Origin: Pseudomonadota bacterium
GTDB taxonomy: Bacteria; Desulfobacterota; Desulfarculia; Desulfarculales; Desulfarculaceae
Direction: 5' to 3'
DNA: 34,435 bases
Assembly: GCA_018819925.1 (NCBI GenBank)
Contig: JAHJPG010000064.1
Coordinates: forward strand, 1 to 34,435
Within the stretch, counting starts at the first letter, position 1. The number at the start of each line of letters is the position of its first letter. The notes under the pieces were generated by a model that did no database searches, was not told the DNA's origin, and saw nothing but the letters and a program-made list of their open reading frames with translations. A program made the position numbers and the translations under genes. Shown piece after piece: positions 8,869 to 27,257 of the stretch.

Positions 8869-9249
8869 ATGTTCAAGGTGTTGCCGGAAAGCGAAGGCCA
8901 TGTCCTGGGGGTGGAGGTCAGCCGGGGTTATACCAAAAAGGACATGCAGGCCTTCAAAGAGGCCTTCGAGCAAAAGATCGCCCAGGGCCACGGCCGCATA
9001 AATCTTCTTGTAAGGCTGGACAAACTGGATCTGAGCAAAGTTCCGGTGGAGCATTATATCGAGGATTGCCGTTACGCTCTGAGCCAAGGGGAGAACCTGG
9101 GGCGCATCGCGGTGGTGGGCAACAGCCCGATGGCCCGGGCCATGGTGACCGCGGACAACCTGATCATGGCCGGCCCCAAGCGGGGCATAACCGAGCGCTA
9201 TTTCGACCTGGCCGAGTTGGAGCAGGCTTGGGAGTTCGTGCGGGGCTAG
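8869..9249 (+). CDS. SpoIIAA-like / STAS-fold protein
   Basis: The 126-residue cytoplasmic protein resembles the SpoIIAA-like (DUF3478, STAS-fold) family: an N-terminal strand pair (VLGVEVSRGYTKKDMQAF), a central GRINLLVRLDKL segment, and an RIAVVGNSPMARAM strand followed by the ERYFDLAELEQAWEFV ending typical of these proteins. They are thought to bind lipids or protein partners, but function is generally unknown. The start at 8869 has AAGGAGGG just upstream. It has its own space between the TraT terminator and a degenerate copy of the dispersed repeat that begins at its stop codon. Confidence 0.75.
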   Translation: MFKVLPESEGHVLGVEVSRGYTKKDMQAFKEAFEQKIAQGHGRINLLVRLDKLDLSKVPVEHYIEDCRYALSQGENLGRIAVVGNSPMARAMVTADNLIMAGPKRGITERYFDLAELEQAWEFVRG

Positions 9250-9320
9250 TCGCCTGGCGCAGCCAGGCGGCGGGGGGGCGGCGTTGCCGGTTGCACTCGG
9301 TCCTCGCCGTAGCTTTTGGC
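9247..9320 (+). repeat. Degenerate, truncated copy of repeat module A (R1)
   Basis: Beginning at the TAG stop of the STAS-like gene, the bases GGCGCAGCCAGGCGGCGGGG, then GGCGTTGCCGG and CCTCGCCGTAGC follow the order of the full module A copies at 21.2, 22.4 and 26.7 kb. The second arm of the central hairpin and the right end are lost, close to the end of the convergent DUF4019-like gene. It fills most of the 84-nt gap. Confidence 0.55.
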
Positions 9321-19851: not shown

Positions 19852-21192
19852 ATGCCCAATAGCGACTGCCAACCCCAGCCGGCCCTGGAGATTCTCCACC
19901 CCCTGGACCGCTGGCCTCCTCCGGGGGTCACCGTGGTGCTGGCCATTCAGTGGCTGGTCATCCTGGTGCCCGGAGTGTTGGTGCTGGGCGAGGTGGTGGG
20001 CCTGGCCTGGGGCCTGGACGCCGCCGCACGGGTGGAGTACATGCAGCGGCTCCTCTTGGTCAGCGCGGCGGCCCAGGCGGCCCAGGTGCTCTGGGGCCAC
20101 CGCCTGCCCGGCCAGGTGGGGCCCTCGGCGGTGCTCATCGTGGGCACCCTGGCCACCATCTCCAGCGGCCCGGCCTCGGTGGCCGGGGCCATGGCCGTGG
20201 GCGCGGGCCTCACCGCCCTGGCCGGCTTCAGCGGTCTGGCCGCCCGCCTGGGGCGTCTCTACACCCCGCCGGTGCTGGCCTCCACCTTGCTGCTGGTGGC
20301 CATGAGCCTGACCCCCACCATGCGCGACCTGCTCTACAGCCCGGCCGCCGGGGGCGGCTCCGTCTCGGGCGGCTTCCTGTTCGGCCTGGGCCTGGTGCTG
20401 GTAATGCTCCTGGCCCAGTACCGCCTCAAGGGCCTGTGGTCCTCGGCGGTGCTCTTGTTGGGCATGGCCGTGGGCAGCCTGGTCTACTACGCCATTGGCC
20501 TGGAGCCCTGGCCCGCCTGGCGGGGCGGCACCCTCACCGGCCTGCCGGCGCTGTTTCCCACCGGCCTGGAGTTCAACCCCGGGGTGATCGCCGCCTTCGT
20601 GCTGTGCTATCTGGCGCTCATCAGCAACGAGCTGGCCACCATCGAGTCCACCGGCCGCCTAATCGGGGCCACGGGCATGGACGGGCGGGCCAACCGGGCG
20701 GTGGCCGTGGCCGGCCTGGGGGGGGTGGCCGCCGGGCTCATGGGCTCCCTGGGGCCGGTGACCTATTCGGTGAGCCCGGCGGTGGTCATAAGCACCAGGA
20801 GCGCCAGCCGTTACACGCTGCTGCCCATGGCCGGAGCAGTGGCGGCCCTGGCCCTGTGGCCGGGGGGGCTGTCCCTGTTCAGCCTGGCGCCCGCCCCGGT
20901 GGTGGGGGCTGTGCTGGTCACCCTCATGGCCCAGAGCGTCTACGCCGCCCTGCACCTGCTTTTGTCCGGCGGCAAGATGCCCACCTGGGCCAGCGGGGCC
21001 ACGGTGGGGGTGGCGCTCACCGCCGGGGTGATCGTGAGCTTCATCCCCGAGGAGGCCCGCCAGGCCCTGCACCCGGTAATCCGGCCCATCCTGGCCAACG
21101 GCTTCGTGGTGGGCCTGGTGCTGGCACTGTTGCTGGAGCATGTCCTGCTGCGGCGCAAGAGGGAGGACCCGGCCCCGGTGCCTCGTCTGTAG
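19852..21192 (+). CDS. NCS2-family nucleobase permease, divergent
   Basis: This 446-residue inner-membrane protein has about 12-14 hydrophobic helices and fits the NCS2 (uracil/xanthine/urate permease) family: an AIQWLVILVPGVLVLG helix 1, GQVGPSAVLIVGTL in helix 3, NELATIESTGRLIG in helix 8, and LGPVTYSVSPAVVISTRSAS in helix 10. Key family positions differ: the usual QH of helix 1 is QW, and the N-x-G of helix 10 is S-P-A, so its substrate may not be a classical base. The start at 19852 has only a weak GGGG site. It faces away from purL. Purine or pyrimidine uptake is inferred. Confidence 0.82.
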   Translation: MPNSDCQPQPALEILHPLDRWPPPGVTVVLAIQWLVILVPGVLVLGEVVGLAWGLDAAARVEYMQRLLLVSAAAQAAQVLWGHRLPGQVGPSAVLIVGTLATISSGPASVAGAMAVGAGLTALAGFSGLAARLGRLYTPPVLASTLLLVAMSLTPTMRDLLYSPAAGGGSVSGGFLFGLGLVLVMLLAQYRLKGLWSSAVLLLGMAVGSLVYYAIGLEPWPAWRGGTLTGLPALFPTGLEFNPGVIAAFVLCYLALISNELATIESTGRLIGATGMDGRANRAVAVAGLGGVAAGLMGSLGPVTYSVSPAVVISTRSASRYTLLPMAGAVAALALWPGGLSLFSLAPAPVVGAVLVTLMAQSVYAALHLLLSGGKMPTWASGATVGVALTAGVIVSFIPEEARQALHPVIRPILANGFVVGLVLALLLEHVLLRRKREDPAPVPRL

Positions 21193-21389
21193 GCGGCGGC
21201 TGCGCCAGACGGCGGGATGCCGCGTTGCCGACCTCGCTTAGACCTCGGCGTATCAGCAATACGCCTGCGGTCTGCGCTCGCCGGCGCCTTGCCTGCCGCC
21301 GCCTGGCTGTGCCGCTGGGAGAGTGGTGGGGAATAGAGATTCTAGAATCGTGTAGGTTGGCGTAGAGGGCGCAAGCCCGAAACCCAACG
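21192..21389 (+). repeat. Composite dispersed repeat copy R2 (modules A and B)
   Basis: Module A runs from the permease TAG stop to about 21315. Its ends pair (GGCTGCGCCAG with CTGGCTGTGCCGC at 21303-21315) and its centre is GGCGTAT-CAGCA-ATACGCC. Module B (21352-21389) is a hairpin GGTTGG...GGGC-GCAA-GCCC...ACCCAAC. The rest of the intergenic stretch (21390-21552) is locally AT-rich (about 21405-21480) and may hold the methyltransferase promoter, but no clear boxes are seen. Confidence 0.8.
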
Positions 21390-21552
21390 ATTTCCGATCA
21401 TTCGATGCATATATTTTACCAAGTTTAAGCAATATTATCGCCGCTGTATTTGCCTCGCCCCGCCTATACATTTAAAAGAAGGGGGCTGGACGCGCTTCGT
21501 TGGGGGGCCGGACGCCCGCTTTCTTGATCACTCCCATCAAGGAGACAGGCGC

Positions 21553-22407
21553 ATGCAGGAGAACAAACCCAGCCACACCGCCCTGCGCGTGGCCACCCAG
21601 CGGGCGGCCCATCAGCTTTTGGACGACCCCAAGGTCCTGGACGACCCGCAGGCCCTGGCCATCCTGGGCCCGGAGAGCGCCGCCGCCCTGCGGGCCGACC
21701 CGCGCGGCTCCGAGACCTCACCCATATCGCCCTATCTGCGGGCCTTCACCGCCGCGCGCAGCCGCTACGCCGAGGACCAGCTAGGCCGGGCGGTGGAGAG
21801 CGGCGTGGGGCAATACGTGGTGCTGGGCGCCGGGCTGGACACCTTCGCCCTGCGCAACCCCCACCCCCCTCAGGCCCTGCGGGTGTTCGAGGTGGACCAC
21901 CCGGCCACCCAGGCCTGGAAGCGTGAGCTTATGGCCCAGGCGGGCTTGGCCGTGCCGGAGGGCCTCACCTTCGCGCCCATGGATTTTCATGAACAGACCC
22001 TGGCCCAGGGCCTGGCCCAGGCGGGCCACGACCCGGCCCGGCCCACCTTCTTCTCCTGGCTGGGGGTGACCCCCTACCTCACCCCCGAGGCGGTTATGGC
22101 CACCCTGGGCTTCATCGCCTCGGCCCCGGTGGGCAGCGGGGTGGCCTTTGACTACGCCATTCTGCCCGAGCTTCTGGACCCCAGGGGGCGAATGGTACTT
22201 GAGGCTATCCTCCAGCGGGTTCAGGCCTCCGGCGAGCCCTGGCACGCCTTTTTCGACCCCGCCGCCCTGGCCGGGGAGCTGGCCGCCCTGGGCCTGGGCC
22301 GGGTGCGCGACCTGGACCAGGCCGGGATCAACCAGCTCTATTTTCGGGATCGCGGCGACGGGCTGGGGGTGGGGACGATGTTTCACCTCATGAGCGCCTG
22401 GGTTTAG
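21553..22407 (+). CDS. TIGR00027-type SAM methyltransferase (leucine carboxyl methyltransferase fold)
   Basis: The 284-residue protein has the LCMT/PpmS-like SAM fold: an N-terminal helical cap, motif I YVVLGAGLDTFALR near residues 89-102, the VDHPATQAWKRE acidic loop near 115-126, and a PTFFSWLGVTPYLTPEAV segment, all typical of the TIGR00027 family often found in actinobacteria and soil or sediment bacteria. The natural substrate is unknown, though relatives methylate small molecules such as polyketides. AAGGAG lies about 9 nt before the ATG. The gene stands alone between two copies of the composite repeat, which suggests a separate insertion. Confidence 0.88.
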   Translation: MQENKPSHTALRVATQRAAHQLLDDPKVLDDPQALAILGPESAAALRADPRGSETSPISPYLRAFTAARSRYAEDQLGRAVESGVGQYVVLGAGLDTFALRNPHPPQALRVFEVDHPATQAWKRELMAQAGLAVPEGLTFAPMDFHEQTLAQGLAQAGHDPARPTFFSWLGVTPYLTPEAVMATLGFIASAPVGSGVAFDYAILPELLDPRGRMVLEAILQRVQASGEPWHAFFDPAALAGELAALGLGRVRDLDQAGINQLYFRDRGDGLGVGTMFHLMSAWV

Positions 22408-22410
22408 TTT

Positions 22411-22600
22411 GGCAGGCGGCTTCGCCAGACACCGGATGGCAGGCGGCTTCGCCAGACGGCCGGGGGCTGCGTTACCGGCATCGCCCGGGCCTCGACGTAG
22501 CCAAGGCTACGCCTGCGGCCATCGCCGCGTCCGCCTGGCTGTGCCGCGAAGATATGAGTAATAGCGTAGGTTGGGTAGAGGGCGAAGCCCGAAACCCAGC
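22411..22600 (+). repeat. Composite dispersed repeat copy R3 (modules A and B, left end duplicated)
   Basis: It begins 4 nt after the methyltransferase stop. The 20-mer GGCAGGCGGCTTCGCCAGAC occurs at 22411-22430 and again at 22438-22457. The central hairpin is CGTAGCC-AA-GGCTACG (22496-22511) and the right end CTGGCTGTGCCGC is at 22535-22547. Module B follows at 22564-22600 with an inner GGGC-GAA-GCCC stem. It ends right before the convergent acetyl-CoA hydrolase stop at 22607. Confidence 0.85.
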
Positions 22601-22606
22601 AACTCC

Positions 22607-24547
22607 TTAGATTCGGCTCAGGGGCTCCTCGCTTTTCTTGGCGCCGCCGCCGGGGCGGTAACGCTCGTCGTACTTGAGCTCCATCTTGGGCTCAGTGACC
22701 GGCTGGTCCAGGTGCAGCTTCATCTCGATGACCCCCTGGCTCACCAGGCCGGTGACCGCGTAACCCATGGACTTGAGGATGTTCAGGCTGGCCATGTTCT
22801 CGGGCATCACGTAGGCGTTGGCCGCCAGGTAGTCCCGGTCCCGGGCCACGTCCAACACGGCCCCCATCAAGGCCCGGCCCAGGCCCTTGCCCTGCATCTC
22901 CGTGGCCACGGCGAAATCCACCTCCGGCTCGCCGTCGCTGCCCAGCACGTAGCGGGCCACCCCCACCATGCGCTCGGACCCGAACTCCCCGGCCAGGGCC
23001 ACCAGGGAAAGCTCGCGGTGATAGTCGATGTTGACCATCTTCTGCATGTCTTTCCTGGGGAAGGCCTTGGTGGCGTGCAGGAAGCGGTAGTACACCTCGC
23101 GGTCGGTCATGGAGTAGAAGAACTCCTGCACCATGCGCTCGTCGGTGGGCTTCACCGGCCGGATGAAAACCTCGCTGCCGTCCTTGAGTGCGGCGCGGCG
23201 CTCGTATTTGTCGGGGTAGACCCCGGTGAACAGGGGGGCCAAAACCTGGCGCTGGCTGATGAGCCCGCCCTGGCGGGCGGCGGTCAACAGGGCGTCACGG
23301 TGGTTGGGGTGGGCGATGTCGATCAGGGCCACCGCCCGCTCGCGCAAGGACAGGCCGTGCAGATACACCGCGCCGTATTCCGTGGCCACGCTGCGCACCC
23401 CGGCGCGGGTGACCACCACCCCGGCCCCGGAGGCGATCTGGGGCACCACCCGGCTGGAGCCGTCGGGCCGAAGCGAGGGCAGCATCACGATGCCCTGGCC
23501 GCCGTGGCTGGCCGAGGCCCCCCGCAAAAAGTCCACCAGGCCCCCCATGCCCGAGTAGACCCTGCCCTCGCGGTCGGCGGCGCACACCTGGCCGGTCAGG
23601 TCCACCTCCAGGGCCTCGTGCACGCTGAACATGCGGTGGTTGGCCCCGATCACTGCGGGGTTATTCACCTGCCGGATGGGCAGCATGAGCACCTGGGGGT
23701 TGTCGTTGACGTAGTTGAACAGCTTCTCCCCGCCCAGGCAGAAGGAGGCCACCACCTTGTGGGGGTGCAGGGTTTTGCTTGCGCCGGTTATGGCCCCGCT
23801 TTCGATCAGCGGCAGGTAGGCGTCGGTGAGGGCGTCGCTGTGCACCCCCAAATTTTTGCGCCCGGCCAGCTCGGCCAGCACCGCCTGGGCCATGCGCCCC
23901 AGGCCGGCGTGGATGGTGGCCCCGTCGGGGATGAGCCGGGCCACCTGGCGGGCGGCCTTCACCGCCACCTCGTCGGGCTGGGCCTGGCTGAAGGTGACCA
24001 GGGGCTGGGCGTGCTCCACGATGCAGTCCAGGCGGCTGACCGGGATGAAGCTGTCGCCGTGGGTGCGGGGCATCTCCGGGTTCACCTGGGCGATGACCAG
24101 GCGGGCCTGGTCCAGGGCCTCGCCGATCACGTCCACCGAAACCCCCAGGGAGCACCAGCCGTGCTCGTCGGGCGGCGACACCTGGATCAGCACCGTGTCC
24201 ACCGCCAGGCGGCCGGAGCTGATGAGGTCGGGCAGGTCGCTCATGTGCAGGGGAACGTAGTCGGCGGCGCCCTCGCTCACCGCCCGCCGGGCGGCGGCGG
24301 CCACGAAAAAGCGCATGGCCGTGAAGTTGTCGGCATAGGCCTCGGAGGTGTATTCGCCGGCGGCCACGCTGATGGCCTGGACAACCTGCACGTCCAGCAG
24401 GGAGGGGGCCCGCCGGGACAGGGCGGACACCAGATGGCGGGGCTCGCCGCAGCCCGAGCCGATGAAAACGCTGCTGCCCGAGCGCAAACGGCTCAGGGCC
24501 TGGTCGGCGTCCATGCGCCGCTTGCGGTAAAGCTCGCGCCAGTCCAA
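22607..24547 (-). CDS. Acetyl-CoA hydrolase/transferase fused to a GNAT acetyltransferase domain
   Basis: The 646-residue protein has an acyl-CoA hydrolase/CoA-transferase module (about 1-440, with DWRELYRKR start, the VLIQVSPPDEHGWCSLG signature and the GQGIVMLPSL region) joined to a C-terminal GNAT module (about 462-615, with the acetyl-CoA-binding MQGKGLGRAL). The first part would move CoA between acetate or another acid and acyl-CoA. The GNAT part could acetylate a protein or sense acetyl-CoA. I favour the TTG at 24547 because it keeps the family's WRELYR start. The ATG at 24514 is the alternative. It starts 5 nt after a small ORF, so translation is probably coupled. Substrate is not readable from sequence. 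Confidence 0.87.
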   Translation of the reverse strand: MDWRELYRKRRMDADQALSRLRSGSSVFIGSGCGEPRHLVSALSRRAPSLLDVQVVQAISVAAGEYTSEAYADNFTAMRFFVAAAARRAVSEGAADYVPLHMSDLPDLISSGRLAVDTVLIQVSPPDEHGWCSLGVSVDVIGEALDQARLVIAQVNPEMPRTHGDSFIPVSRLDCIVEHAQPLVTFSQAQPDEVAVKAARQVARLIPDGATIHAGLGRMAQAVLAELAGRKNLGVHSDALTDAYLPLIESGAITGASKTLHPHKVVASFCLGGEKLFNYVNDNPQVLMLPIRQVNNPAVIGANHRMFSVHEALEVDLTGQVCAADREGRVYSGMGGLVDFLRGASASHGGQGIVMLPSLRPDGSSRVVPQIASGAGVVVTRAGVRSVATEYGAVYLHGLSLRERAVALIDIAHPNHRDALLTAARQGGLISQRQVLAPLFTGVYPDKYERRAALKDGSEVFIRPVKPTDERMVQEFFYSMTDREVYYRFLHATKAFPRKDMQKMVNIDYHRELSLVALAGEFGSERMVGVARYVLGSDGEPEVDFAVATEMQGKGLGRALMGAVLDVARDRDYLAANAYVMPENMASLNILKSMGYAVTGLVSQGVIEMKLHLDQPVTEPKMELKYDERYRPGGGAKKSEEPLSRI

Positions 24548-24552
24548 GGGGG

Positions 24553-24762
24553 CTAGCCCTCTCCGCCGGGCTCGTTCCCGCCGCACTTGGGGTTGGCCGG
24601 CAGGTGGCAGGACTGGTTCACCAGCTCCTCCACCGTGGCCAGGCAGGGGCCACCCCGCTCGATGATGTCGTCCACCAGGCGCTCCCACAGCTCCCGGCCG
24701 GTGTCGAAGCCTTCCTCGAGCTGGCCGGGCTGGCTCAAAATATCTTGAGGTTCCTTGTCCAC
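24553..24762 (-). CDS. Small protein of unknown function upstream of the acetyl-CoA hydrolase fusion
   Basis: The ORF gives 69 residues from a GTG start with GGGAG about 7 nt upstream. The sequence is acidic and helical in its first half (LEEGFDTGRELWERLVDDIIE) and has three cysteines in the second (PCLATVEELVNQSCHLPANPKC). I recognise no family. It ends 5 nt before the TTG start of the next gene, which fits a coupled two-gene operon. It might be a small partner subunit or a leader ORF that governs translation of the enzyme. The annotation rests on ribosome site and spacing only. Confidence 0.55.
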   Translation of the reverse strand: MDKEPQDILSQPGQLEEGFDTGRELWERLVDDIIERGGPCLATVEELVNQSCHLPANPKCGGNEPGGEG

Positions 24763-24808
24763 CGTGTCTCCCAGGCAAGATGAATAAACTATATAACTAT
24801 TTCACGCC

Positions 24809-24850
24809 AGTTGGTGGCGGTCAAGCACGGGGGGCTTGCCAGACGGCGGG
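24809..24850. repeat. Short fragment of repeat module A (R4) in the divergent intergenic region
   Basis: GGCTTGCCAGACGGCGGG (24833-24850) is near-identical to the left end of module A (GGCTTCGCCAGACGGC...). The rest of the 132-nt region between the two divergent genes has an AT-rich stretch (24781-24803, with TATATAAC) that may serve as promoter for one or both sides. Confidence 0.4.
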
Positions 24851-24894
24851 CGGCGGGTTAAGTTCGGTCAGATTATCCGAGGGAGTTGGCTATC

Positions 24895-25818
24895 GTGGCT
24901 CAAATCCTGGACAACGTGCTGCCGGTGTTCGTGCTCATAGCCCTGGGCCGGCTCGTCTGGGCCCGGGGCTGGGCTCCGCCGGCGTTTTTCGCCGCCTCCG
25001 ACCGCCTGGTCTACTATGTGTTCTTCCCGGCCCTGCTCTTTTGGAAGATCGGTTCGGCGGGGCCGGAGCTAACCGCCCCCCCGGCGCTCATGGCCGCGGT
25101 GCTGGCGGCCATCGCCCTGGTGTGGGGCCTGAGCCTGGTCTATGCCCGCCTGGCCGGAGTCCCCGCCTTCCAGGCCGGCACCTTCAGCCAGGTGAGCTAC
25201 CGCTTCAACACCTACGTGGGCATGGCGGTGATCGTGAGCGCCTTCGGCGAGGAGGGGGTGGCCCGCTTCGGCATCCTCATCTCCCTGGCCATCCCTTTCA
25301 TCAACCTGCTGGCCGTGTCCACCCTGGTGTGGTTTTCCCAGGCCCAGTACAGCGGAGCCCAAAAGGCCAAGCTGGCGTTCAAGGCCCTTGTGGCCAACCC
25401 CCTGATCCTCTCCTGCCTGGCGGGCATCGCCTGGGCCCGGCTGGGCCTGGAGCTGCCGGTGTTTTTGCAGCGCTCCCTGGTGCTGGCCGCCAACCTCAGC
25501 CTTCCCCTGGCCCTGCTGTCCATCGGCGGCTCCTTGGCCCTGGGCAAGTTGAAGGGCCGCTTGGGGCTGAGTCTGTTGTCGTGCCTGCTCAAGCTGCTGG
25601 TGCTGCCCTTGGTGGGGTGGGGCCTGCTGGCCCTGGCCGGGGTGCAGGGCCTGTCCCTGGCCGTGGCCATGGTCTTTCTCGCCCTGCCCACGGCCACCAG
25701 CGCCTACATCCTCTCCAGCCAGATGAAATCCGACGCCGACCTGGCCAGCGCCGCCATCGTCTTGGGCACCATGTTGAGCTTCTTCTCCCTGTCGGCGGTC
25801 TTGATGATCTTTGCCTAG
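24895..25818 (+). CDS. AEC-family transporter (auxin efflux carrier-like)
   Basis: The 307-residue inner-membrane protein shows about ten hydrophobic helices with the AEC family layout: an N-terminal VLPVFVLIALGRLVW helix, GTFSQVSYRFNTYVGMAVI in helix 4, and a C-terminal half with ANLSLPLALLSIGGSLAL and LALPTATSAYILSSQM. Bacterial members export or take up organic acids such as malate, but the substrate here is unknown. The GTG at 24895 is chosen because GAGGGAG lies 9 nt upstream. The in-frame TTG at 24886 abuts that site and cannot be used well. Confidence 0.9.
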   Translation: MAQILDNVLPVFVLIALGRLVWARGWAPPAFFAASDRLVYYVFFPALLFWKIGSAGPELTAPPALMAAVLAAIALVWGLSLVYARLAGVPAFQAGTFSQVSYRFNTYVGMAVIVSAFGEEGVARFGILISLAIPFINLLAVSTLVWFSQAQYSGAQKAKLAFKALVANPLILSCLAGIAWARLGLELPVFLQRSLVLAANLSLPLALLSIGGSLALGKLKGRLGLSLLSCLLKLLVLPLVGWGLLALAGVQGLSLAVAMVFLALPTATSAYILSSQMKSDADLASAAIVLGTMLSFFSLSAVLMIFA

Positions 25819-25856
25819 GCCCCCGGTGGTGTGATAAATTTCGGGTAGGAGGCATC

Positions 25857-26048
25857 ATGAGCAAACTGACGGTGTTTATAATCCGGGCCGCGGCGGGCCT
25901 GCTGGGCGGTTTCGTCCTGTGGCGCTTATTCTTCCGCGAGACCACGCCCTGGTGGACCTTCCTGGTTTTGGCGGTGATCGTGGTGGCCGCCGCCTACGCA
26001 TCGGAGATCTGGCGTTTCAAGAAAAAGATCGAGAAAAACCAACCTTGA
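25857..26048 (+). CDS. Small two-helix membrane protein
   Basis: The 63-residue protein has two hydrophobic segments (about 5-24 and 31-50) joined by an RETTPWW loop, and ends in a basic tail (WRFKKKIEKNQP). I recognise no family with confidence. Such short proteins are common in Desulfobacterota. TAGGAGG lies 4 nt before the ATG, and the gene is 38 nt after the AEC transporter, so the two are probably in one operon with the TPR gene that follows 46 nt later. Confidence 0.75.
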   Translation: MSKLTVFIIRAAAGLLGGFVLWRLFFRETTPWWTFLVLAVIVVAAAYASEIWRFKKKIEKNQP

Positions 26049-26094
26049 GGTTGCGGCGGCAAGGCACTCACCACTTGCCCGGAGGGAGACGCGC

Positions 26095-26664
26095 ATGAAG
26101 GCGTGGCTGCTGGTTCTGGTCTTGGGTTTGGCCTGCTGCTGGGGCGTGGCCCCGGCCCTGGCAGTGTCCACGCCTCAAAACCCCCCGGGCCATCCCCGTC
26201 AGGCCGCCCGCCTGGCGGTGGACCAGGGTTGGCAATACTTCGACCGGGGAGACCTGTCCGCCGCCCTCAGCCGTTTCCACCAGGCCACCGTAATCGATCC
26301 CGGCTTCGCCCAGGCCTACTTCGCCCGGGCCTTTGTCTATTCCCGCCAAGAGCGCTGGGGCCTGGCCGAGGCCAACTACCTTAAAACCATGGAGCTGGCT
26401 CCCAACTACACCCACGCCTACGGCAACTTGGCCGTGGTCTATTGGTCCCAGGGCAAGGTGGCCATGGCCGCGCCCCTGGTGCGCCGGGCCCTGGAGCTGG
26501 CTCCGGGGGACCCAATGGTGCAGGAAAACGCGGCCTACTACTTTTTCTACTCATCCAACTACGAGGCCGCCTGGCGGCATCTCAACAAGGCCAAGGCCCT
26601 GGGGGCTCGGCTCGATCCCATTTTCGTGGAGAATCTGAGGGTACGCCTCTCCAACAGTAATTAG
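26095..26664 (+). CDS. Exported tetratricopeptide-repeat protein
   Basis: The 189-residue protein has a Sec signal peptide (hydrophobic core about 4-20, cleavage after ALA at residue 23) and then TPR units from about residue 40 to 175, recognised by A-x-x-x-F/Y-x-R-A patterns such as AYFARAFVYSRQERWGLAEA and AYGNLAVVYWSQGKVAMA. It should act in the periplasm as a protein-binding scaffold. The partner is not known. It is the third gene of a likely operon with the AEC transporter. Its TAG stop is the first bases of repeat copy R5. Confidence 0.85.
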   Translation: MKAWLLVLVLGLACCWGVAPALAVSTPQNPPGHPRQAARLAVDQGWQYFDRGDLSAALSRFHQATVIDPGFAQAYFARAFVYSRQERWGLAEANYLKTMELAPNYTHAYGNLAVVYWSQGKVAMAAPLVRRALELAPGDPMVQENAAYYFFYSSNYEAAWRHLNKAKALGARLDPIFVENLRVRLSNSN

Positions 26665-26856
26665 GCGGCTTCGCCAGGCGGCCGGGGGCTGCGTTGGCGG
26701 CATCGCTTAGGCCTCGACGTAGCCAAGGCTACGCCTGCGGCCTGCGCTTGCCGCCGCCTTGCCCGCGACCCCCCTGGCTGTGCCGCTGAGGCTGGCCATC
26801 GGTCATAAAGATTTCAGATTAGCGTAGGCCGGGTGGAGCGAAGCGAAACCCAACAA
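26663..26856 (+). repeat. Composite dispersed repeat copy R5 (modules A and B)
   Basis: Module A runs 26663-26786: AGGCGGCTTCGCCAGG at the left, the central hairpin CGTAGCC-AA-GGCTACG (26718-26733), and CTGGCTGTGCCGC at the right (26774-26786). After a 34-nt AT-richer spacer, module B (26821-26856) has GGGTGGAGCGAAGCGAAACCC. The TPR gene stop codon is part of its left edge. Confidence 0.85.
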
Positions 26857-26885
26857 GAATTAAGATTCATCCAGCAAAACAGCAA

Positions 26886-27061
26886 GTCATTGCGAGGTCC
26901 GCCGCCCATGGCGCAGGCCTGAAAAAGGGGCTGCGTGCGGCGGGCCGTGGCAATCTTCCTTTTCCATCGTCATGCCTCCCTTCAGGGGATGCGGCCGTCC
27001 CGCCTGGGGGAAGGCGAAGTTCGCCACGTCGCATCTTTTCCAAGATGCTCCTCGCGATGAC
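26886..27061. repeat. Palindromic element with GTCATTGCGAGG ends
   Basis: GTCATTGCGAGG (26886-26897) is matched by CCTCGCGATGAC (27050-27061), an inverted repeat with one mismatch. Inside are the GTGGCAATCTTCC stretch that normally closes this class of widespread intergenic repeat and a perfect GCATCTT-TTCC-AAGATGC hairpin (27031-27048). No gene is seen in it. Confidence 0.7.
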
Positions 27062-27150
27062 GGCTATTGCTGGAGGCATGGGCGGGAATTGCGTGCCTTG
27101 TCCGGGCATTGATGCTGACACGAAAGCACCGTATTCGGTTGGACTAGATA

Positions 27151-27185
27151 GCTTAGGTTGGGTAGAGCGAAGCGAAACCCAACAA
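27151..27185 (+). repeat. Stand-alone copy of repeat module B (R6)
   Basis: GGTTGGGTAGAGCGAAGCGA followed by AACCCAACA forms a hairpin with GTTGGGT pairing to ACCCAAC. It matches the B part of copy R5 almost exactly but has no module A next to it. With R5, the GTCATTGCGAGG element and the terminator, it accounts for the 593-nt gap between the TPR and acetolactate decarboxylase genes. Confidence 0.8.
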
Positions 27186-27200
27186 ACCCCTTGCGCCGGA

Positions 27201-27231
27201 AATAAGAAAGGGCGGGGATAAACCCCGCCCC
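27201..27231 (-). terminator. Intrinsic terminator of the leu/acetolactate decarboxylase operon
   Basis: On the minus strand GGGCGGGG (27230-27223), loop TTTAT, CCCCGCCC (27217-27210) and then TTTCTTATTT follow the decarboxylase stop codon at 27258. The same GGGGCGGGGTTTATCCCCGCCC hairpin is a common repeat in other bacteria, so it may be a recruited repeat. Confidence 0.75.
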
Positions 27232-27257
27232 TACAGCAATGCTGTTTTCGGCTTAAC

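Follow-up and report, generated by a model that had tools for sequence, protein, structure and literature searches.

Repeat copies in the window

The stretch analysed here (the window) comprises 34,435 nt from a member of the Desulfarculaceae (contig JAHJPG010000064.1, contig 60 of the 4.03-Mb draft genome GCA_018819925.1), and several of its intergenic regions contain copies of a dispersed repeat. An original prediction, made from the sequence of the window alone, described this repeat as a composite of two modules, A and B. The three complete copies that it reported (R2, R3 and R5) are correctly positioned, with both modules aligning throughout, and A and B are indeed dispersed intergenic repeats in a fixed relative order. 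All copies listed below lie on the plus strand; the three full copies of A were detected with both a sequence profile and a covariance model, and those of B with a profile.

In R2, module A (21196-21315) begins 4 nt past the TAG stop codon (21190-21192) of the open reading frame (ORF) located at 19852-21192, and its minus strand is the better-folding one; the module B that follows (21353-21392) is a GTAG-tagged hairpin resembling repetitive extragenic palindromes (REPs), with the stem GTTGGCGT..ACCCAAC. Module A of R3 (22443-22547) carries an internal deletion of ~17 nt in its right arm and is followed by a B copy at 22567-22606. Between this A copy and the stop codon of the ORF at 21553-22407 lies the left-end fragment of a further A copy (about 22412-22440), recognizable from the sequence, which reads GGCAGGCGGCTTCGCCAGAC twice. 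In R5, module A (26665-26786) is directly preceded by the TAG stop codon of the ORF at 26095-26664, and the associated module B (26825-26856) is degenerate. Two of the partial copies initially proposed are also genuine: the A-only piece at 9247-9320 corresponds to the left half of the module (profile match at 9257-9316, E-value 1e-5), and the B-only piece at 27151-27185 to a profile match at 27154-27189. The profile did not detect the 18-nt A piece at 24833-24850, whose shortness precludes its assignment. Module A measures 120-122 nt rather than the predicted 125 nt or so, and the spacing between A and B in the window, thought to be 16-36 nt, is ~20-38 nt.

Module A is a multicopy hairpin with exact ends

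The copy numbers retrieved by the search tool, for this genome and for its relatives, are lower bounds. A BLAST comparison of the R5 copy to its own genome yielded 48 matches, the majority of which span A alone, and a covariance model yielded 112 matches, i.e. ~105 places after merging of the duplicates found on both strands (best E-value 2e-26). Module A is repeated far beyond chance. The search of genome and relatives that had been proposed as a check recovered module A in every other genome of the genus (seven genomes, with 26 to at least 119 copies in each), as well as 42 copies in one genome of another genus of the same family; the covariance model detected no module A in the remaining 21 genomes tested. 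The statement that no named family covers A was borne out, as Rfam 15 gave no match at the gathering score within the window and nothing relevant below threshold either.

Alignment of 31 A copies revealed exact ends, CGGC(T/G)NCGCCAG on the left and CTGGCTGTGCCG on the right, beyond which the flanking sequences are unrelated save for a covarying G/C pair located just outside. The pairing ends and the central hairpin anticipated for A are both present, although the strand complementary to that originally read folds better: RNAalifold returned -59.6 kcal/mol for this complementary strand (37 pairs, 23 of them with two-sided changes) versus -27.6 kcal/mol for the other. In a pair-count control, 94.8% of the cells were paired, compared to 24-45% when the partners were slid along the alignment, and two-sided changes amounted to 120 against a shuffled mean of 37. 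The covariation supporting the module A hairpin is decisive. Bare A has imperfect inverted ends of 12-13 nt, which correspond to the base of the hairpin itself. On the better-folding strand we counted 73 G-U cells for 11 A-C cells, using a structure predicted on that same strand, which favours G-U; with the structure predicted on the other strand, our reading of the table is that G-U pairs still do not exceed A-C cells there. Folds of single sequences point to the same strand for 78 of 92 copies with RNA parameters and for 88 of 92 with DNA parameters. Because the G-U/A-C imbalance and the single-sequence folds agree, the constrained strand of A is the one antisense to the upstream gene.

A superfamily sharing one hairpin core

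A pattern scan with the core of A retrieved at least 116 stretches, mostly from Desulfobacterota, along with matches in contigs of metagenome-assembled genomes labelled as Acidobacteria, Nitrospira, Planctomycetes, Spirochaetes and others, where binning errors are possible. Among 45 diverse members, the core reads CCGCAGGCGTA-loop-TACGYCGAGG, flanked by CAAGGC and AACGC boxes; the arms differ and covary (29 pairs, 25 of which display two-sided changes), and a central G-U is conserved in 36 members. A second covariance model, whose E-values come from a shortened calibration, found the superfamily, at an E-value of 1e-4, in 131 of the 297 genomes sampled from the phylum (90 of 198 genera). Judged by its sequence, module A is a member of this wide superfamily sharing one hairpin core. 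In a genome of another family, G305, a run of six superfamily copies lies among arg and dap genes, one of the copies being located between dapB and dapL (gene names read from translations).

An exact-motif search of the literature returned nothing relevant, and the sole precedent found is a supplementary figure of the Geobacter metallireducens genome paper (PMC2700814, Additional file 4 Figure S1), which is described as aligning 24 'predicted short RNA elements' from Geobacter and Desulfotalea. According to the main text of that paper, these elements are intergenic and multicopy, possess the central palindrome GRCGTAGCGCTGCTACGCC, and include one between dapAB and dapL. Their central palindrome, GRCGTAGC..GCTACGCC, matches the GRCGTA..TACGCC read across copies of A, so that they would be the same kind of element as the A superfamily. 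The boundaries, the stop-codon rule, the replication fork and strand bias, the forms embedded in transposable elements and the breadth of distribution reported below are found neither in the main text of that paper nor in the other literature searched.

The core is carried by miniature transposable elements

Complete miniature inverted-repeat transposable elements (MITEs) that contain the core occur in other lineages and, as a minority class, in the genus studied here; three types were recognized. T1 (~255 bp, ends CCCGCATATTTCATGAAGG) and T2 (176 bp, ends CCCGCATTTCTCACCACG) are flanked by CTAG, TTAG or TTAA duplications, and T3 (~143 bp, ends GTGTCCATCC, terminus GTGTCCATCCATAAATGG) by 6-bp duplications such as TAAATA or TAGATA. 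All three have terminal inverted repeats (TIRs), a target-site duplication (TSD), no ORF and a length between 70 and 300 bp, and TSDs (CTAG..CTAG, TTAA..TTAA, TAAATA..TAAATA, TAGATA..TAGATA) were seen in many copies of T1 to T3. These features show that the MITE forms are mobile. A 4-bp YTAR duplication is typical of transposases of the IS5 group.

In T1 units with CTAG/TTAG-type duplications (L029, L030, L051 and others), the A core is positioned off-centre, and at the right terminus a stop codon contributed by the target completes a tiny ORF (MKYAG-stop). Two T1 termini in L065 were considered as the possible ends of a transposase-carrying element, a candidate that was rejected since the pair encloses an unrelated host gene. 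Carriage by plasmids or phages was likewise rejected (no plasmid match, four viral contigs). Identical superfamily MITEs are found at the ends of four contigs of genome G234 (C169, C173, C174 and C175); their spread is very recent and also breaks the assembly.

The fate of the bare core was followed at 21 usable sites of the studied genome for which a sister species offered anchors with 77-95% identity. By our reading, A occupies the same spot in 11 cases, has been partly deleted in 5 and is missing from the other 5, and deletions leave terminal scars such as CGGCTGTGCCG. The body of orthologous A copies is often more diverged than their flanks, which suggests replacement or conversion between copies. 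Near-identical copies also occur at different places.

Module A abuts stop codons

Placement relative to genes was analysed with genes called by a simple purpose-written program based on codon usage, chiefly in G005, a complete relative in which dnaA lies at base 317. For 71 of the 97 copies the left end of A lies at most 30 nt from the stop codon of a gene in the same orientation, and for 62 at most 15 nt; the copies outside the 30-nt rule are mostly second members of tandem pairs or belong to the MITE-borne class. In the genome of the window, a coding stop precedes 33 of 40 tested copies, 27 of these being at most 9 nt away. The same rule holds in two complete genomes from other families of the phylum. 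Stop codons preceding A in G005 are TAG in 45 cases, TAA in 20 and TGA in 6, versus 348, 165 and 247 overall. The YTAR motif coincides with 68% of the stops before A and with 41% of other stops (p 2e-5), coding YTAR sites being otherwise rare: 323 of ~900 are stop codons.

The idea that bare A inserts at a fixed motif adjoining its left end was rejected, as the distance to the stop varies from 0 to ~15 nt and there is accordingly no fixed cleavage site. The possibility that the element itself brought the stop codon was discarded as well. The comparison with orthologous loci advocated in the original prediction identified sites lacking A in relatives, and these already have the stop codon at the same place.

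G005 also contains ~10 tandem arrays of 2-3 A copies each, always co-oriented (e.g. 148928/149049, 497971/498102 and 2454150-2454517), in which the nearest copy is only 0-7 nt from the stop; these arrays look as if a new A inserts beside the stop, displacing older copies. TAG is the commonest stop codon in the genus (348 of 760 called genes in G005), which is unusual for G+C-rich bacteria.

Module A is oriented with the replication fork

The gene-sense strand of A coincides with the leading strand for 84 of the 97 copies of G005, versus 381 of 710 genes (p 6e-12); the genes themselves are divided 381:329 between leading and lagging strands (54% leading). Between convergent genes, A adjoins the leading-strand gene in 43 of 51 pairs. 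The density of A is higher near the origin. A reader of the window alone could not have seen that A abuts stop codons, is oriented with the fork and belongs to a wide superfamily of MITEs.

Origin and possible function of module A

We favour, with a probability of about 62%, the interpretation that A is a non-autonomous dispersed hairpin of the REP/MITE kind which accumulates at stop codons and is probably mobile. The superfamily has spread by transposition in trans, as shown by the TIRs and TSDs of the three MITE types that enclose its core in several lineages. One target is YTAR (CTAG, TTAG, CTAA, TTAA), a motif concentrated at stop codons in these G+C-rich genes and whose duplication leaves the gene its stop. 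The bare 120-nt core is the common form in the genus and lies a few nt past stops, in one orientation and mostly behind leading-strand genes; it would be copied via single strands, in a manner coupled to replication. After insertion, the hairpin would become part of the 3' end of the upstream gene's mRNA and would probably influence mRNA stability or terminating ribosomes in the way REPs do. Module B is an independent GTAG-tagged REP occupying the same places.

Several observations weigh against this interpretation. No direct repeat above the level of shuffled flanks was found around 126 bare copies, i.e. these lack a TSD. Since bare copies have no TSD, we infer their mobility from the near-identical copies and from the turnover of sites. 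The genome of the window and G005 contain no Y1 transposase, and a search for an autonomous partner gave none. G-T/G-U pairs are tolerated on the strand antisense to the gene, which misfits a simple role at the mRNA 3' end and also misfits exposure on the lagging-strand template. YTAR cannot account for the fixed orientation, because it is symmetric. Finally, the polarity of A flips at GC-skew turning points in two complete genomes of other families (60 of 77 and 34 of 44 copies), where ~68-69% of the genes are themselves on the leading strand, so that an excess of A over genes is not established there.

A possible but clearly less probable alternative is that A is not primarily selfish but a functional element, acting in cis as RNA or DNA, that selection maintains at gene 3' ends, with control of ribosome termination, protection of mRNA 3' ends or a block to antisense or head-on transcription as candidate roles. 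Such a function would agree with the fixed distance and orientation of A relative to the stop, with its persistence at 11 of the 21 sites compared to the sister species (with anchor genes 77-95% identical), and with the better fold of the antisense strand. It would also agree with the G305 copy between dapB and dapL, an interval in which the G. metallireducens paper likewise annotates a 'short RNA element' (PMC2700814). Moreover, E. coli REPs lying at most 15 nt from a stop have been reported to stall ribosomes (cited in PMC12306157), which by analogy would make an effect of A at the mRNA level plausible. However, most other genera of the family lack A, half of the sites have been gained, lost or partly deleted between two congeners, and in other lineages the core is enclosed by MITEs that have TIRs and TSDs. 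In addition, a structure on the antisense strand cannot act as RNA in operons where that strand is not transcribed.

We retain the mobile interpretation, of which a more specific version can be put forward as a tentative proposal: the core may have moved, in many bacteria, among transposons whose termini are unrelated, and in the present genus may insert without TIRs, directly behind stops and in one orientation, by way of single strands and coupled to replication, through an enzyme reading the folded antisense strand.

The orientation bias, taken alone, could conceivably have arisen through loss, and this rather doubtful scenario is compatible with mobility. Replication slippage would preferentially delete the copies whose stronger hairpin strand is on the lagging-strand template. 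Consistent with it, in 84 of 97 copies the lagging-strand template does not carry the strand that folds better as DNA (88 of 92 copies), sequences such as CGGCTGTGCCG are scars of internal deletions, and 6 of the 11 best-scoring copies are in the minority orientation. Yet the 16 copies with the closest paralogues are all already in the biased orientation; the bias therefore arises at or soon after insertion. Loss also leaves the abutment to stop codons unexplained.

Module B is an independent companion of module A

Module B, a hairpin of 36-40 nt, consists of GTAG followed by GTTGGGT..ACCCAAC. A census over 784 kb of sampled stretches of G005 identified 27 copies, all of them intergenic; GTAG precedes the stem in 25 of these, as it mostly does in the window. 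In its sequence B corresponds to a GTAG REP, separate from A. Like the described GTAG REPs (PMC3733652), it is dispersed downstream of genes and associates GTAG with a short palindrome of 20-40 nt. Module A resembles GTAG REPs in its placement and likely effect, and differs from them in its length (120 nt versus 20-40 nt), in having neither a GTAG nor a CGTC tag, and in that the genome contains no RAYT gene. The cognate RAYT gene of such REPs was not found in this genome: the RAYT/Y1 transposase profile (PF01797) had no match in the genome of the window or in G005, and the eight RAYT-like loci of sister genomes have no B nearby. RAYT was accordingly rejected as the mover, there being no Y1 transposase in either genome and no A or B flanking the RAYT-like loci of sister genomes, save one A ~1 kb away.

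The first interpretation of the window, in which A and B form one composite mobile unit, is largely refuted and retains very little probability. It accounted for the shared order and orientation of the three window copies, and 17 of the 18 B copies of the G005 sample located within 250 nt of an A are indeed downstream of it and in the same orientation. Nevertheless, most A copies lack B (only ~17 of 75 in the G005 sample have one downstream), a third of the sampled B copies (9 of 27) stand alone, and the spacing between the modules ranges from 21 to 166 nt in G005. In the genome of the window, approximately 5 of the 48 BLAST matches to the A+B query cross both modules. At the R2 site, a sister species has lost most of A and kept B, and another species has neither. 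A and B are gained and lost independently, and their association is a co-location, both occupying gene 3' ends in the same orientation, rather than a unit.

Equally improbable is the idea that A is a folded single-strand recombination site of the attC kind placed after each gene: it is a long imperfect palindrome directly 3' of stops, with one strand folding better and with co-oriented tandem copies, but its ends are CGGC..GCCG instead of RYYYAAC/GTTRRRY, conservation resides in its apex, contrary to attC, and it is flanked by syntenic core genes (arg and dap genes among them) rather than by cassettes, which also ruled out a gene-cassette array for the run of six copies in G305.

Relation to known repeats

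Types T1 to T3 resemble bacterial MITEs such as RUP, NEMIS, Nezha and others by their TIRs, their TSDs, their lack of coding capacity and their length of 143-255 bp. The superfamily differs from these in that an internal hairpin core is conserved across unrelated termini and target sites, and the common form in the genus has neither TIRs nor TSDs. Compared by description, the ERIC/RU-1 elements of enterobacteria are also long (127 bp) intergenic imperfect palindromes devoid of coding capacity. To our knowledge, neither a stop-codon rule nor a fork-orientation rule is known for ERIC.

A single hairpin family, absent from Rfam, is present in nearly half of the sampled genomes of the phylum, and A provides a strong structure at many gene ends, where it probably shapes the 3' ends of mRNAs. 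Its abutment to stop codons offers a testable idea of how an element could settle harmlessly in a compact genome, by means of a motif that would mostly be a stop codon, and its fork-wise orientation makes the question of single-strand transposition directly testable.

Other repeats and mobile elements

The intergenic region of R5 is a mosaic of several repeat families. A third repeat of ~80 nt (CGCCACGTCGCATCTTTTCCAAGATGCTCCTCGCGATGACGGC) occupies window positions 26995-27075, with more than 12 copies in the same genome and others in sister genomes. A hairpin, GGGCGGGGATAAACCCCGCCC, lies at 27209-27235, directly 3' of the B-only copy, and a related stretch recurs together with B in sister genomes. 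At ~24 places, G005 contains near-identical genes of 263-268 aa that match the DnaA ATPase profile and probably encode the IstB protein of a highly active IS21-type element.

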